64,000 nt of DNA from Christiangramia sp. OXR-203 (GTDB taxonomy: Bacteria; Bacteroidota; Bacteroidia; Flavobacteriales; Flavobacteriaceae), in contig NZ_CP139698.1 in the NCBI RefSeq assembly GCF_034372165.1, forward strand, positions 1,054,001 through 1,118,000, in the 5' to 3' direction. Position numbers and translations under genes: made by a program. Position 1 is the stretch's first letter, and every line of letters begins with the position of its first letter. Shown here piece by piece: positions 3,929 through 58,998 of this stretch. The notes beneath the pieces are model-generated. The model made no database searches. It was not told the origin of the DNA and saw only the letters and a list, made by a program, of their open reading frames with translations.

Positions 3929-4516
3929 TTATTCCGGAGTTTCTAAAAGTTCGTTATCGATCTTTATTCCAGATACATCTGCAATCGTATTCAGCATGTT
4001 TACCAGGTCTGCCTGAGCCATAAGCTCCTGGATTTCTCTCTTTGTAAAACCTGCTTTTTCCAGACTATTAAAATCTTCATCAGAAATATCTGAATGATTT
4101 AAAGCTGCTTTGGTAACGATCTGTACAGCGGTTCGGTAACTTACCGGCATCGACGGACTATTGATATGTTGTGTAGCTTTAAAACCTTCATCTTCTGAGA
4201 TCATACTACTCATACTATCTGCAAAGATGCCGTGTGCATGAGAACAATAATTGCAACCTCTTTCTTTCGAAACGTTGTAAATGATCAATTGCTTTAATAC
4301 GTTAGGAACTTCACCTTCCATAAGCGTATTCTTTAATTTGCTCCAGTTCCCTTTAAGTAGAGTCGCATTATCGCCCTGGCATTTAAACCAGTTTAAAACG
4401 AAGGGAAGTTGTAAGGTTTTTTTAGTATCGTCGTAAATTGTTTGAACTTCCGGAGAAGCTTCATCGTAGGAAACCATTCTATAACGAGACTGGTTCTGGG
4501 GTAAAGTTTGATTCAT
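3929..4516 (-). CDS. Carboxymuconolactone decarboxylase / AhpD-like protein
   Basis: A 195-residue helical protein of the CMD/AhpD superfamily. The redox motif GCNYCSHAHGIFAD provides the CxxC plus downstream histidine typical of AhpD-like peroxidase or disulfide-exchange proteins, at about residues 90-105. Many relatives reduce peroxides with a thioredoxin-like partner. It lies 15 bp upstream of the kinase-like gene in the same direction and may head that operon. The specific substrate is unknown. Confidence 0.8.
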   Translation of the reverse strand: MNQTLPQNQSRYRMVSYDEASPEVQTIYDDTKKTLQLPFVLNWFKCQGDNATLLKGNWSKLKNTLMEGEVPNVLKQLIIYNVSKERGCNYCSHAHGIFADSMSSMISEDEGFKATQHINSPSMPVSYRTAVQIVTKAALNHSDISDEDFNSLEKAGFTKREIQELMAQADLVNMLNTIADVSGIKIDNELLETPE

Positions 4517-52451: not shown

Positions 52452-53492
52452 TTAGCTCTTTTTATAATGTTTTTCAGATTGTGCATTCAGCATCTTCACG
52501 GCTTGTTCTGCGGTGATGTCTCGCTGAGGTCCTGCAAACATCTCATAACCAACCATAAACTTCTTAACCGTGGCAGATCGTAATAATGGTGGATAGAAGC
52601 TCATATGAAAGTGCCATTCAGGATGGTCCTTGCCATTGGTTGGGGCCTGGTGTATCCCGGAAGAATATGGAAATGACGTTTCAAACAGGTTATCATACTT
52701 AGTAGTTACCTTTTTTATAATATCTGCAAAAGCAATCTCTTCTTGTTCATTAAGATCTGTTATTTGCTGAAGATGCCTTTTAGGAATGATCATCGCTTCG
52801 AAAGGCCATACTGCCCAGAAAGGAATTAAGGATACGAAATGCTCATTCTCATCGAGAATTCGTTCTCCAAAGGCCAGCTCCTGATTTAAATAATCACCAA
52901 GAAGGCTGAAATTGTTCTTTTGCCAGTATGCTATAAATCTCTCAGATTTCTTTGAGATTTCGGTTGGGATGGACGATTGCGACCATATTTGCCCATGAGG
53001 ATGCGGATTGCTACAACCCATGATAGCACCCTTATTTTCAAAGATTTGGATGTAATTGATGTCTGGATTTTTCACTAGCTCAGCGAACTCGGTTTTCCAG
53101 ATCTGCACAACCTTCTTGATTTCTGAAACCTCCATCAATGGAAGAGTCAGCGAATGATCTGGAGAGAAACAAACAACTTTGCAAATTCCCCTTTCAGTTT
53201 CAGACTTTAATAAACCCTGCTCAAAATTTAATTCAGGAGTATCTGGCAACAGGGAGCTGTAATCGTTTATAAATGTATAAGGTTCAGAATAATTCGGATT
53301 CGTTTCTCCGCTTGCCCTGGTATTTCTTGGACATAGATAGCAACCCGGATCGTATGAGGCATTCTGGCTGGTTTTATTCTCTTCGGTTTTACCCTGCCAT
53401 GGTCTTTTTGTGCGATGCGGAGAAACCAGTATCCATTCACCGGTCAAAATATTATACCTGCGATGAGGTAGTTTGTTTATTTCATTATTCAT
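52452..53492 (-). CDS. galT: Galactose-1-phosphate uridylyltransferase
   Basis: A 346-residue Leloir enzyme that swaps UDP-glucose and galactose-1-phosphate. The nucleophile His is in SNPHPHGQIW (H166), and CYLCP (C51, C54) and HPEWHFHMSFYPP are the zinc/iron-site regions. It follows galK with an 8-bp overlap, a galKT operon. Confidence 0.95.
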   Translation of the reverse strand: MNNEINKLPHRRYNILTGEWILVSPHRTKRPWQGKTEENKTSQNASYDPGCYLCPRNTRASGETNPNYSEPYTFINDYSSLLPDTPELNFEQGLLKSETERGICKVVCFSPDHSLTLPLMEVSEIKKVVQIWKTEFAELVKNPDINYIQIFENKGAIMGCSNPHPHGQIWSQSSIPTEISKKSERFIAYWQKNNFSLLGDYLNQELAFGERILDENEHFVSLIPFWAVWPFEAMIIPKRHLQQITDLNEQEEIAFADIIKKVTTKYDNLFETSFPYSSGIHQAPTNGKDHPEWHFHMSFYPPLLRSATVKKFMVGYEMFAGPQRDITAEQAVKMLNAQSEKHYKKS

Positions 53493-54660
53493 GGGATACC
53501 AGTTTTATAATTTCTGTTCCGGCTGATGGTGCTACTTCAATTGCTTCCGGATAGATCTTGAATCTTTCAAAATACGCTTCGGCAACTTCAGTAATATAGC
53601 CTTCAACGTTTTCAGAATTGATAAGATTAATGGTGCAACCACCAAAGCCACCACCCATCATTCTGCTTCCATAGATAAATTCTTTTTCTTCAGCATAATT
53701 AACCAGAAAATCAAGTTCCTGGCAACTCACCTCATATTGATCCTGCAAGCCGCGATGAGAAGCATACATCAATTTCCCTAATGCCTGAAGATTATTATTT
53801 CGAAGTGCCTCTGCAGCTGCCTGCACACGCTCGTTCTCCTGTAGGACATATAAACAGCGTTGGTAAGTTTGCTCTGTAAGTTCTGATCGATAACTTTCTA
53901 GCAAGTCAAAATCCACATCTCGTAAGCTTTTTATTTGCGGATTCTTCAATTGAATTATCCTGATCGCTGCTTCACATTCCTCACGCCTGGAATTGTAATC
54001 ACTGTCGGCCAGATTATGAGAAACCCTTGTATCTAAAAGGAGCAGTCTAAAATTTCCAAGATCTGCAGGAATATATTCAGTAGCAAGACTTCGGCAATCC
54101 AGTTTGATAAAATGATCCTTTTTACTGAGAATGGAAGCAAATTGATCCATGATTCCGCAGTTGGAACCTACAAACCTATTTTCGGCACGTTGAGCCATCT
54201 TTGCGATCTCAATTTTGCTCAAATTCAGATCAAATAATGCATTAAGGCCTGCACAGAATCCACATTCCAGTGCTGCGGAAGAACTTATCCCGGCACCGGT
54301 AGGAAGATCGCTGGAAATTATACAATCAAAACCTTCCAGCAATTTATTCTCCTGCAGAAGTTCGTGAATGATCCCGAGTAAATAATCTCTCCAGTCGCTT
54401 TGCTTTGTTAAGGGCTGGTCGATGTGAAATTCAAATCCATTGCTAAAAGTGTCACTATATATTCTGCAGAAGTTTTCCGTATCATTTGTTCTGAATTTGA
54501 AACTTATATGCTTATCGATCGCTGTGGGCATTACGAAACCTTCATTATAATCTGTATGTTCTCCAATCAGGTTGATTCGACCAGGAGAATTAACGAGTAA
54601 TTTCGGTTGGAAATCATCAAAAACCGAAGGCTTCGTAGAAAAAGATCTGATATTTGTCAA
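53485..54660 (-). CDS. galK: Galactokinase
   Basis: A 391-residue GHMP kinase. SPGRINLIGEHTDYNEG is the galactokinase signature, SDLPTGAGISSSAALE the ATP loop, and GGGFGGCTINLI the third motif. The longest frame starts at 54702, but a perfect promoter box at 54684-54691 would put the mRNA start after that ATG; the TTG at 54658-54660 is my choice. The operator 54691-54715 overlaps the promoter. Confidence 0.93.
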   Translation of the reverse strand: MTNIRSFSTKPSVFDDFQPKLLVNSPGRINLIGEHTDYNEGFVMPTAIDKHISFKFRTNDTENFCRIYSDTFSNGFEFHIDQPLTKQSDWRDYLLGIIHELLQENKLLEGFDCIISSDLPTGAGISSSAALECGFCAGLNALFDLNLSKIEIAKMAQRAENRFVGSNCGIMDQFASILSKKDHFIKLDCRSLATEYIPADLGNFRLLLLDTRVSHNLADSDYNSRREECEAAIRIIQLKNPQIKSLRDVDFDLLESYRSELTEQTYQRCLYVLQENERVQAAAEALRNNNLQALGKLMYASHRGLQDQYEVSCQELDFLVNYAEEKEFIYGSRMMGGGFGGCTINLINSENVEGYITEVAEAYFERFKIYPEAIEVAPSAGTEIIKLVSHE

Positions 54661-54683
54661 GACTTGATTAATTTTGAGTAATT

Positions 54684-54691
54684 CAAATATA
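54684..54691 (-). promoter_or_regulatory. -7 promoter box of galKT
   Basis: TATATTTG on the minus strand is a perfect TAnnTTTG box. It abuts the palindromic operator at 54691-54715. Confidence 0.65.
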
Positions 54692-54715
54692 ATAAACGTC
54701 ATACTTACATTTATT
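54691..54715. promoter_or_regulatory. Candidate NUDIX-regulator operator, site A
   Basis: AATAAACGT (54691-54699) and ACATTTATT (54707-54715) form a palindrome with one mismatch and a 7-bp spacer. It lies between galK and the regulator gene. The same arrangement recurs at 55482-55506. Confidence 0.65.
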
Positions 54716-54731
54716 ATTTCAGAATATAATT

Positions 54732-55460
54732 ATGCACACTAAGAACTCACAACTGGAAGTTTTTGAACCAACAGATCTGTACCAGATCAGGGAGAAAATG
54801 TATGTCGCGACAGACTGTATCATTTTTGGCTTTCATGAAGGTAAGCTTAAGTTGCTGGTATTCGAGCGTCAGGTAGAGCCCTTAAAAGGTTCCTGGTCAC
54901 TTGTTGGTAGCTTTGTACGGCTTGATGAAGATCTCGAGCTGGCAGGGCAGAGGGTTTTGAGAGAGGCTACTGGATTGAACGAGGTTTTTATGCAACAATT
55001 AAAGACCTATGGTAAACAGGACCGTGACCCGGGCTACCGTTGTATTTCTGTAGCTCAATACGCTTTAATTAGAGTGGAGGATTATATAGACAAACTGGAA
55101 AAACATTATGGTGCCCGCTGGTTCGAAATTGATGATCTTCCCGAATTAGTTCTGGATCATGATCAAATGGTACAGGATGCATTGGAACAACTAAGACATA
55201 ACGCGCGTCACAGACCCATTGGTTTTGAGCTGTTGCCAGAGAAGTTTACCATTCCACAGTTACAGAACCTTTATGAAGCGATCTACCAGAAGCCACTGGA
55301 CGCGAGAAACTTCAGAAAAAAAGTATTATCTCTGAATGTTTTAGAAAAACTGGAGGAAAAAGATAAATCGGGTAGTAAACGCGGTGCTTTTTTGCATAAA
55401 TTCAATAAAGAGAATTACTTACAATTATTAAAAGCTGGATATAATTTCGAGATTTTTTAA
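54732..55460 (+). CDS. NUDIX-winged-helix transcriptional regulator (NrtR/AraR type)
   Basis: A 242-residue regulator. The N-terminal NUDIX fold (about 25-150) carries a Nudix box in which consensus residues are lost (GSFVRLDEDLELAGQRVLRE), so hydrolase activity is unlikely and ligand sensing more likely. The C-terminal winged helix (about 160-240) has FTIPQLQNLYEAIY and DARNFRKKVLSLNVLEKLEE. Bacteroides AraR is a known sugar-responsive member. It is divergent from galKT and next to operators at 54691 and 55482. Confidence 0.85.
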   Translation: MHTKNSQLEVFEPTDLYQIREKMYVATDCIIFGFHEGKLKLLVFERQVEPLKGSWSLVGSFVRLDEDLELAGQRVLREATGLNEVFMQQLKTYGKQDRDPGYRCISVAQYALIRVEDYIDKLEKHYGARWFEIDDLPELVLDHDQMVQDALEQLRHNARHRPIGFELLPEKFTIPQLQNLYEAIYQKPLDARNFRKKVLSLNVLEKLEEKDKSGSKRGAFLHKFNKENYLQLLKAGYNFEIF

Positions 55461-55481
55461 AATCTGAAAATAGTTTCTTTA

Positions 55482-55506
55482 AATAATTGTATGAATTACA
55501 TTTATT
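55482..55506. promoter_or_regulatory. Candidate NUDIX-regulator operator, site B
   Basis: AATAATTGT (55482-55490) and ACATTTATT (55498-55506) with a 7-bp spacer match site A in spacing and in one whole half-site, plus the flanking ATT. It is 3 bp before a -7-like box (TAATTTAG, 55509-55516), so binding would repress the downstream operon. Confidence 0.65.
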
Positions 55507-55530
55507 ATTAATTTAGAAAAACATTTCAGG

Positions 55531-56418
55531 ATGGCTAAAGATCAATCTCGTAGAAAATTATTAAAGAACCTGGGTATTGGAGCAGGTTTACTTGTTATTC
55601 CATCATTTTCCAATGCATCCGGTTTCGATGTTGCAATTAATAATTTACAAGACCCTACTTCAAAGATTAATCATTCTGTTTGTCGCTGGTGTTATGCCGA
55701 TATTCCCCTTAAGGAGTTTGCTAGAGCCTGTAAAGAATTGGGAATTAGTGCTATTGATCTTTTAAAACCTTCAGAATGGCAAATTGTACAGGAGGAAGGT
55801 CTAAAATGTTCCATGGCAACCGACGATTTTATCAGTTTGACCGATGGATTCAATGACCCTGAAAATCATCAGAAATTGCAATCTGCTTACATAGAACTCA
55901 TCGACAAAGCTGCAGATAAGAATATTCAGAATGTCATCTGTTTTTCTGGGAGTCGGCGTGGGATGGATAATGAAACTGGCTGGAACAACTGTGTAGACGG
56001 ATTAAAGCCTTTATTGGACCATGCTAAAACTCGTAATGTCACCCTCGTCATGGAATTGCTGAATAGCAAAGTAGACCATCCAGATTATATGGCAGATCAT
56101 ACGTCCTGGGGAGCCGAACTTGCCAAAAGACTGGACCGACCAAACTTTAAACTGCTCTACGATATCTACCATATGCAGATCATGGAGGGTGACATAATTC
56201 GAAACATTAGAGAATTTCATCCTTACATCAATCATTATCATACCGCGGGAAATCCCGGAAGAAACGAGATCAATAATTCTCAGGAATTAAACTATCCTGC
56301 AATCATCCAGGCGATTTATGATACCGGTTTTGATGGTTATATCGCTCAGGAATTTATTCCAACCTATGAGAATAAACTAAAAGCGCTTGAAGAAGCCATT
56401 GGAATTTGTACTATCTAA
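55531..56418 (+). CDS. Tat-exported TIM-barrel sugar isomerase-like protein
   Basis: A 295-residue protein of the hydroxypyruvate isomerase/AP-endonuclease-2 fold. The N-terminus has a Tat signal (SRRKLLK followed by a hydrophobic stretch). Family residues are LVMELLNSKVDHP, LLYDIYHMQIMEGD and GYIAQEFIPT, with Glu and His that could bind metal. It would act on a sugar in the periplasm. It is the first gene of the operon with the large glycosidase, behind operator B. Confidence 0.85.
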   Translation: MAKDQSRRKLLKNLGIGAGLLVIPSFSNASGFDVAINNLQDPTSKINHSVCRWCYADIPLKEFARACKELGISAIDLLKPSEWQIVQEEGLKCSMATDDFISLTDGFNDPENHQKLQSAYIELIDKAADKNIQNVICFSGSRRGMDNETGWNNCVDGLKPLLDHAKTRNVTLVMELLNSKVDHPDYMADHTSWGAELAKRLDRPNFKLLYDIYHMQIMEGDIIRNIREFHPYINHYHTAGNPGRNEINNSQELNYPAIIQAIYDTGFDGYIAQEFIPTYENKLKALEEAIGICTI

Positions 56419-56430
56419 ACATAAATTTTA

Positions 56431-58998
56431 ATGACTCAAAATATCAAATCGATCACAGTTCTTATATTACTGATTTTTAATATTAATACAGCTTTCTCTC
56501 AAGTAACTACAGTTGTAGACGAAAAGGGAATAATTCGATGGGAGCCTTCCGGAGAGGAAGTAAAAGGTTTTGGAGTCAATTATTCGGCACCATTCGCACA
56601 TGCTTACCGTTCTGCTGAAAAACTTGGGCTTGATATCAAGGCCGAAATTGATAAAGACCTCTACCATTTTTCCCGGCTTAATTTTGATCTGTATCGTCTT
56701 CACGTCTGGGATACAGAAATTAGCGATGCAGAAGGGAATTTACTGGAAAATGAACACCTGGATGCGTTCGATTATTTGCTGAGTGAACTTAAGAAACGCA
56801 AGATCAATTTTGTGATCACTCCAATCGCATACTGGGGAAATGGCTGGCCGGAACCAGATGAAGATACTCCGGGATTTTCGAATAAGTATGGCAAGGAAGG
56901 AAGCTTGACCAATCCCAAAGCGATCGCTGCCCAGCAAAACTATCTTACGCAATTTATGAGCCACGTGAATCCATATACAGGAATTGCGTATAAAAATGAT
57001 CCAAATCTCATCGCGGTTGAAATCAGTAATGAACCACATCATCGCGGCACTCCTAAGGAGGTAAAAGAATTCATTAATAAACTCACAAAGGCCATCCGGG
57101 ATTCCGGTTCTCAAAAACCTGTCTTTTATAATGTCACCCATAGCGTTCACCTTGCAGACACTTATTTTGAATCAGATATTCAGGGTGGTACTTTTCAATG
57201 GTATCCAACCGGACTTGGTTTTAAGAAGGAAATCCCGGGAAATTTACTTCCCAATGTCAACGATTATAATATTCCGTTCAGCAATGTCATCGAAAATAAT
57301 AACGCCGCTAAACTTGTGTATGAGTTTGATGCTGCCGATGTTAATAGATCATATATCTATCCCGCAATGGCACGCAGTTTTCGAGAAGCGGGAATTCAGA
57401 TCGGGACGCATTTTGCCTATGATCCATCTTTCCTGGCATATGCGAATACTGAATATAATACCCATTATATGAACCTCAATTATACTCCGCATAAGGCTTT
57501 AGGTCTTATGGTCGCCGGGGAGATCTTCCATCATACCAAACTGGCCGAAGATCAGGGAACCTATCCCGACAACTTAAAATTTGGAGATTTTCTTATTCAG
57601 TATGAGGATGATCTAGCGGTCTATAATTCTGCGGAAAAGTTTATTTACACGAATTCAAATGCTGAAAAGCCTAAGGCTATTTCAGAATTAAGAGAAATTG
57701 CGGGTCACGGTAGTTCTGAAGTGATCGAATATGGAGGGAAAGGAGCTTACTTTCTTGATAAACTTGAAGAAGGAGTCTGGCGTCTGGAAGTAATGCCCGA
57801 CCCATTTCTTATCCAGGATCCCTTCGGAAATAACAGCCTTGACAAAACGATATCTGTGATCAAGTATAATTTGAACGAAATGGAAATTAATCTTCCTGGA
57901 CTTGGTGAAAATTTCGATTTCAAACAGATAAATACTTCGGAATCTGAAGTTCAAAAAGCCAAAGGTGGTGCAATATCAGTTTTACCCGGCACTTATATTC
58001 TTTCTGCTGAAGGGAAGGATTTTGAATTTGAAAATTTTGAGGGAGAGTTCCGTTTGGAAGTCGATAATTTTGTGGCAGTAGAAGAGTCGGTTGACCGTAC
58101 ATATGTCCTACATAAAGCCACAAATGCCGCGGAAGCAAATCAGAGTTTTTGTATCGAAGCAGTGATTGTTTCGAATGAGGAGATTAAGAAAGCCGAAATA
58201 TGGTTTCAGAATGGGAATATTTATGAAGCAGTACAAATGAAAGCAAAAAATCAATACGATTATTCTGCTGAAGTACCGCAAAATTTACTTGTTCCAGGAA
58301 CACTTACTTACCACATCATTCTGGAAACTGAAAATGGAAAACTAACATTCCCTGGAAACGTTTCAGGTAGTCCGGAGAACTGGGACTTCTATTCTGAAGA
58401 TGCATATTCTACTCGTATCTACAATAAAGGTTCTGCCATCTCACTTTTCGATGCTTCTGTGGATGCACATATGGTAGTTCATTCATGGAAGCCCGGCAAT
58501 AAAGTTGTTCCCATAAATTCGGTTGAAGACGAATTTCAGGTAAGACTGGATCAATTATTTTCACTAGATATTGAGAACAAAAACGCAGCTCCAATTTACG
58601 ATTACTCTTTTCGGTATAATTTTCAGAAGAAAATAGGAGCAAGGCTTCCTGGAGATCAGAAGGAACTTATCATCAAGGCACGTAACCTTAAATTGGGTAC
58701 AGAGAAACTTCAGGTAGCTTTATTAATGAAAAACGGTTCAGCTTTTGGTAAAATAATCGAATTAGATCAAGATTTAAAAGAAATAAGGATCAGACTGGAT
58801 GAGCTTGAGCCAGTGAAAACGGTTACGTTGCCACGTCCTTACCCGGGTTTTTTATCCTATTATTTTGAGCATCAGAATCCGGAAGATTTTGATCTTCAAG
58901 AGGTGGAAGCACTTCAGTTTTCTATTGGTCCGGGGATCGAGCGTGAAAATCTTCAGAAATCACATGAAATTGGTATTGTAAAGGTCAATCTCCAGTAG
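56431..58998 (+). CDS. GH5-like glycosyl hydrolase with C-terminal beta-domains
   Basis: An 855-residue exported enzyme with signal peptide (VLILLIFNINTAFSQ). The TIM barrel (about 30-430) resembles clan GH-A: AVEISNEPHH gives acid/base E201, and LVYEFDAAD gives E298 as a candidate nucleophile. Beta-sandwich regions follow. The family number is an inference. The substrate may be a galactose- or mannose-containing glycan, given its place in the galactose regulon. It starts 12 bp after the isomerase gene. Confidence 0.78.
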   Translation: MTQNIKSITVLILLIFNINTAFSQVTTVVDEKGIIRWEPSGEEVKGFGVNYSAPFAHAYRSAEKLGLDIKAEIDKDLYHFSRLNFDLYRLHVWDTEISDAEGNLLENEHLDAFDYLLSELKKRKINFVITPIAYWGNGWPEPDEDTPGFSNKYGKEGSLTNPKAIAAQQNYLTQFMSHVNPYTGIAYKNDPNLIAVEISNEPHHRGTPKEVKEFINKLTKAIRDSGSQKPVFYNVTHSVHLADTYFESDIQGGTFQWYPTGLGFKKEIPGNLLPNVNDYNIPFSNVIENNNAAKLVYEFDAADVNRSYIYPAMARSFREAGIQIGTHFAYDPSFLAYANTEYNTHYMNLNYTPHKALGLMVAGEIFHHTKLAEDQGTYPDNLKFGDFLIQYEDDLAVYNSAEKFIYTNSNAEKPKAISELREIAGHGSSEVIEYGGKGAYFLDKLEEGVWRLEVMPDPFLIQDPFGNNSLDKTISVIKYNLNEMEINLPGLGENFDFKQINTSESEVQKAKGGAISVLPGTYILSAEGKDFEFENFEGEFRLEVDNFVAVEESVDRTYVLHKATNAAEANQSFCIEAVIVSNEEIKKAEIWFQNGNIYEAVQMKAKNQYDYSAEVPQNLLVPGTLTYHIILETENGKLTFPGNVSGSPENWDFYSEDAYSTRIYNKGSAISLFDASVDAHMVVHSWKPGNKVVPINSVEDEFQVRLDQLFSLDIENKNAAPIYDYSFRYNFQKKIGARLPGDQKELIIKARNLKLGTEKLQVALLMKNGSAFGKIIELDQDLKEIRIRLDELEPVKTVTLPRPYPGFLSYYFEHQNPEDFDLQEVEALQFSIGPGIERENLQKSHEIGIVKVNLQ

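Follow-up and report, generated by a model that had tools for sequence, protein, structure and literature searches.

A putative galactose-responsive regulator of the NrtR/AraR type and its paired operators beside galKT in Christiangramia sp. OXR-203

In Christiangramia sp. OXR-203, the galactose genes galT and galK lie divergent from a gene for a Nudix-like protein, and a 25-bp palindrome stands in the intergenic region and again before the TIM-barrel gene that follows. These arrangements raise the question of which protein acts at the two sites, which genes it controls and which sugar it senses. We analysed a window of 64,000 nucleotides (the whole stretch of DNA under study), for which a sequence-only reading had proposed that the Nudix-like protein governs galK, galT, its own gene and a glycan-processing pair as one regulon. 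The features concerned are as follows.

52452..53492, minus strand: galT, galactose-1-phosphate uridylyltransferase (PF01087, PF02744; TIGR00209)
53485..54702, minus strand: galK, galactokinase, open reading frame as listed (PF00288, PF10509, PF08544; TIGR00131)
54684..54691, minus strand: -7 box TATATTTG of the putative galKT promoter, from sequence, one base shared with operator 1
54691..54715, no strand assigned: predicted operator 1, between galK and the regulator gene, from sequence and cross-genome conservation
54732..55460, plus strand: regulator of 242 aa, Nudix-like sensor and NrtR/AraR winged helix (PF00293, PF21906, PF19368)
55482..55506, no strand assigned: predicted operator 2, upstream of the TIM-barrel gene, from sequence and cross-genome conservation
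55531..56418, plus strand: TIM-barrel sugar isomerase/epimerase-like protein (PF01261; PDB 3ngf at 9.5e-18)
56431..58998, plus strand: GH5-like protein of 855 aa, weak matches

Both 25-bp sites were found exactly where the sequence-only reading had placed them. Operator 1 reads AATAAACGT-catactt-ACATTTATT and operator 2 reads AATAATTGT-atgaatt-ACATTTATT; as had been claimed, the right half-site is the same in both, the left half-sites differ at two of nine bases, the spacer is 7 bp in each and ATT follows directly. In the 64-kb window, the pattern AATAAATGT-N7-ACATTTATT with up to three mismatches gave two matches, each with one mismatch, compared to a mean of 0.20 in 100 dinucleotide shuffles of the window at the same threshold (two or more matches in three shuffles). 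In the 3.40-Mb genome, the pattern of the sequence-only reading (the original pattern below) retrieved only operators 1 and 2 at one mismatch or fewer. At up to three mismatches it gave 13 places versus 14 for a reversed control, so these loose matches are uninformative. A degenerate form yielded one extra one-mismatch place in the whole genome, at 2546154, which was rejected as an operator because it falls within a coding frame of 475 codons, presumably DnaA from the look of its start. Operators 1 and 2 are the sole non-coding places in the 3.4 Mb with at most one mismatch.

A full regulator ortholog was found in 23 of 24 genomes of Christiangramia (Gramella), its own genome counted, and the 24th, an assembly that is 67% complete, holds just one match, at 31% identity and interrupted by five stops. 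Among the best 80 loci kept from named genomes, the closest relative is Christiangramia echinicola; Gramella jeungdoensis is also represented. The gene order, with DUF885-galM-SSF and then galT-galK divergent from regulator-TIM-GH5-like, is mostly kept within the genus. In the majority of the genus loci, and in several from other genera, the original pattern matches at 15 to 18 of its 18 positions ahead of galK and at 14 to 17 ahead of the TIM-barrel gene. The consensus AATRAWYGTA-N5-TACRWTYATT, derived from the same genomes that were then scored with it, occurs with up to two mismatches upstream of galK in 22 of 23 genomes (the exception, L046, has a site with four) and upstream of the regulator gene in 19 of 23 (L043, L046, L056 and L057 have no good site), and at up to three mismatches it precedes 20 of 23 TIM-barrel genes; the original pattern used by itself leads to the same result. 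Absence of the motif from orthologous loci had been named in advance as the finding that would count against the regulon proposal, and the motif is present there. The TIM-barrel genes lacking a good upstream site are those of L049, L050 and L053. In L049 and L053 the gene starts about 27 bases or less from the regulator end and can therefore share the regulator's operator; in L050 no GH5-like gene was found in that stretch. Upstream of seven other cluster genes, the consensus with up to three mismatches was found in 0 of 125 cases (galT 0/23, galM 0/19, SSF 0/17, DUF885 0/17, GH5-like 0/20, RNR 0/20, amylase 0/9), and one DUF885 locus and one SSF locus have their nearest site at four mismatches.

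The sites also travel with their genes. In seven genomes in which galK was searched for, it lies beside the regulator in two and elsewhere in five, and all five relocated galKT genes have kept the site, 4 to 27 bases before the galK frame as listed; the relocated TIM-barrel genes of L192 and L194 have it as well (2/2). A site precedes galE by 131 bases in G010 (L179:4370-5572) and by 52 bases in G021 (L188:3153-4273). Over the 24 genomes, the consensus with up to two mismatches occurs at 88 places and its reversed control at 26, so a good many of the 88 are probably chance matches. When 12,636 three-base dyads were ranked, with no use of the original pattern, in 12 galK/galT-linked loci of which nine are outside Christiangramia, GTA-N5-TAC came first, in 7 of the 12 loci versus 0.3 expected (Poisson 3e-8 before correction). 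Both sites are conserved regulatory sites. As a separate observation, a look-alike, TATATTCGTAA-N4/5-TACATTTATT, was seen in three relatives (L181:4555-4579, L182:4601-4625 and L183:4434-4458), flanked in all three by the same gene pair, one member of which is an SSF symporter (Pfam, L182); it may owe its recurrence to common descent or be a weaker target.

The palindrome could instead work as RNA, in the form of a hairpin or terminator, or be a chance repeat, and we hold either to be extremely improbable. RNA of the galK strand over operator 1 does fold better than its shuffles (z -2.68), but two other stretches fold at chance level (z 0.45 and -0.26), and the position of the -7 box means that operator 1 would precede the galK transcript. 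Recurrence across loci far exceeds controls. Both possibilities were rejected on the dyad ranking, the cross-genome counts and the folding z-scores.

As sites on DNA, the two operators differ in their relation to promoter elements. The -7 box of Bacteroidetes promoters has the consensus TAnnTTTG. Read on the galK strand, operator 1 ends on the base that opens TATATTTG (54691-54684), and in 19 of 23 galK loci a TAnnTTTG box is placed likewise (absent in L046, L050, L196 and L197). At the TIM-barrel sites it was found at the same offset in 0 of 20, with a looser T-rich stretch instead; the earlier claim that a -7-like box abuts each site holds on the galK side but not on the TIM-barrel side. Since operator 1 covers the promoter upstream of the -7 box, a dimer bound there should obstruct RNA polymerase, and steric repression is likely at the galK operator. 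The listed ATG of galK (54702) is overlapped by operator 1 and the -7 box, so the true start is probably further inside the frame (54658-54702); a candidate is TTG at 54660-54658, ahead of a conserved TNIRSF stretch.

On the evidence of its sequence, the 242-aa protein is a member of the NrtR family. It matches BtAraR (5bs6) at 5.9e-68, with 105 of 214 residues identical (49%), and its scores for PF00293 (31.7 bits) and PF21906 (95 bits) are both past the cut-off; the AlphaFold2 model has a mean pLDDT of 81.7. The PF21906 and BtAraR matches bear out the NrtR/AraR-like winged helix of the initial proposal, and the degenerate Nudix box was confirmed as well, two glutamates of the signature being replaced by V75 and A79. 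An impaired Nudix signature is described in PMC4666351. The genome encodes one full-length NrtR-type protein, and a second match is a frame of 148 aa covering the Nudix part only. Against NCBIfam NF050029 (ADPR-responsive repressor) the regulator scored 121.3 bits, below the cut-off of 400.

How the protein would read its operators can be judged from BtAraR (BT0354), the NrtR-family L-arabinose repressor of Bacteroides thetaiotaomicron (PDB 5bs6, 5dd4, 5ddg and 5deq), which was crystallised with an operator GTGT-N7-ACAC whose first G is read by Lys179 (PMC4666351). The TGT-N7-ACA spacing equals that of the window operators, but the first base differs, the window having ACGT/TTGT and ACAT. Of the six contacts (K179, R180, N181, K184, K204 and R205), the last five are kept in the window regulator, and Lys179 is replaced by Ala191, the base it reads being A/T instead of G. 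This residue and base were surveyed over 114 loci (two genomes counted twice), 77 of which had a site by a fixed rule not naming that base, the other 37 being dropped. Proteins without Lys have no G in 44 of 45 cases (exception L096), and 30 of 32 proteins with Lys have a site with G in one or both halves (exceptions L092 and L130). Residue 191 changes three times on the tree (independent pairs: one on supported branches, three on all branches), and Lys191 and the base agree in about 0.6 of random pairings; the correlation is therefore suggestive, and it was rejected as statistical proof. Two loci combine the traits differently: L086 has a gal-type pocket and an adjoining galT, yet Lys and a GTGT/ACAC operator, at a poorly supported place on the tree, and L117 has an ara-type pocket with Pro replacing Lys and an ATGT/ACAT operator.

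A different protein, of the LacI family or Crp-like, might bind the sites. A LacI-family gene does stand by galKT in some relatives (L179, L191 and L193; cluster 17, 9 loci), and in L180 a LacI-family gene of this galKT-neighbour type is preceded, at about 100 bases, by an operator-like site (4407-4431), where cross-control between the two regulators is possible. The best LacI proteins of the window genome, however, are 40% identical to it, so that the sites are kept with no close ortholog present; the Crp-like motif of Bacteroides, TATGTTnTAnAACATA, has TGT and ACA six bases apart versus seven here, and the site spacing agrees with the AraR operator. Binding by such a protein is disfavoured by the spacing and the missing LacI ortholog, and we consider it very unlikely. 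That the 242-aa protein binds both sites we infer with high confidence.

As to the sugar sensed, D-galactose is L-arabinose with an added CH2OH at C5. The residues R34, R86 and H131 of BtAraR, which form hydrogen bonds to L-arabinose (PMC4666351), correspond to R46, R98 and H143 of the window regulator, and these are the same in all 112 rows (window counted, two duplicates dropped). Phe36, Gly48 and Phe129 of BtAraR are V, S and L in the window regulator, and mostly so across its branch: in the 50 rows where position 60 (BtAraR Gly48) is S, A or D, position 48 is V, I or L in 50 and position 141 is L in 47. Phe36 sits near C4/C5 of the sugar in BtAraR (PMC4666351), and its replacement by Val would make room for the CH2OH of galactose. 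This gal-type branch has galK or galT within 6.5 kb in 35 of 50 cases and araA, araB or araD in 0 of 50; outside the genus the figures are 17 of 26 and 0 of 26 (some loci are short contigs, and ara genes were named by NCBIfam). In the G60 group (n=62), 32 are by ara genes and 16 by galK. Because the branch amounts to little more than a single clade, few independent events lie behind this association; 15 of its 50 members have neither galK nor galT within 6.5 kb, and some of these (e.g., L082 and L083) have no site. The regulator belongs to the NrtR family, but the DNA-contact residue, operator and gene context set it apart from AraR orthologs.

Taken together, the pocket residues, the gal gene context and the sugar structure, which are the whole basis for the proposal, make D-galactose the probable effector. 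The same regulator and operators could respond to another compound, namely L-arabinose as retained from the ancestral protein, a Leloir intermediate or the sugar product of the TIM-barrel/GH5-like pair. The invariance of the three L-arabinose-bonding residues speaks for this, as does the fact that the pocket argument is drawn from sequence alone; the exchanged phenylalanines and glycine and the gal rather than ara neighbours speak against it, and we view a non-galactose effector as rather unlikely. In Flavobacterium, arabinose-type relatives with Lys191 and G60 also lie near galM, galK and galT (L132, L133, L138, L139, L142, L143, L146 and L148), where a single regulator may serve both sugars. 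A 792-aa frame of a Flavobacteriaceae assembly (L121:3738-6116) fuses ribulokinase (AraB) and L-ribulose-5-phosphate 4-epimerase (AraD).

The regulon supported by the sites is smaller than the gene cluster. Sites stand before galK, the regulator and the TIM-barrel gene, and that part of the one-regulon proposal is upheld; none precedes DUF885, galM or the SSF transporter, so these were rejected as members and the regulon is not the whole cluster. The galT and galK frames share 8 positions. The GH5-like gene begins 12 bases past the TIM-barrel gene and has no operator of its own at any of 20 loci, and the two presumably form one operon. The TIM-barrel protein has a twin-arginine-like start, SRRKLLK (by eye). 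The label "GH5-like" rests on weak matches, the Pfam match (E 1.4e-4, 21.9 bits) being below the cut-off of 23.5 and the best PDB match being to a mannanase at 6.8e-6 over 93 residues. Elsewhere, in the relative G014 (L056:8890-10425), a good operator and a sulfatase gene come after the gal-type regulator, and a second gal-type regulator in G021 (L059) lies among frames reading like sulfatases, which hints at control of sulfated-galactan use.

We propose the following mechanism. The sugar-free regulator dimer would bind the two operators and shut the galKT promoter and the TIM-barrel/GH5-like operon, and probably the regulator's own promoter too. An inducer, most likely D-galactose, would enter the Nudix-like pocket and, as happens in BtAraR, shift the winged helices away from the DNA. 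Release would turn on Leloir galactose catabolism together with the glycan-processing pair, which is presumably exported. By analogy with BtAraR, repression is highly probable as the effect of the regulator, and we have good confidence in the account as a whole, a galactose-responsive NrtR/AraR repressor acting via two operators. The overall interpretation first offered for this DNA is supported by site conservation, the relocated galKT genes and the protein domains, binding and effector being inferred.

This explanation, if right, assigns a regulator, operator and regulon to the galactose catabolism of marine Flavobacteriaceae. The motif allows targets to be read from genomes; examples are galE (two relatives), a sulfatase (one relative) and a glycosidase. 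At somewhat less than even odds, we suggest a galactose-sensing NrtR branch across Flavobacteriaceae and beyond, which would be set apart from an AraR-like relative by two separable steps: a roomier, re-lined pocket, with V, S and L in place of Phe36, Gly48 and Phe129, and the exchange of Lys179 for a small or other residue with the half-site G becoming A or T. L086 and L117 would then be natural cases where pocket and DNA-reading traits separate, and the locus would offer a testable case of one protein family altering both ligand and operator.

In the open-access papers searched, no NrtR-type galactose regulator was found; the sugar-sensing NrtR regulators met there are AraR and XylR (PMC4666351, PMC3878776). 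The NrtR of Shewanella oneidensis (PDB 3gz5, 3gz6; match 1.6e-23) shares the Nudix-like domain and winged helix but, unlike the window regulator, is an ADP-ribose-responsive NAD regulator that controls NAD genes. XylR (BT0791) of Bacteroides is an NrtR-family sugar regulator from the same phylum as the window organism; it is stated to be 33% identical to BtAraR and is tied to xylose genes (PMC3878776, PMC4666351). The window regulator is a relative of BtAraR and seems to have switched from arabinose to galactose.
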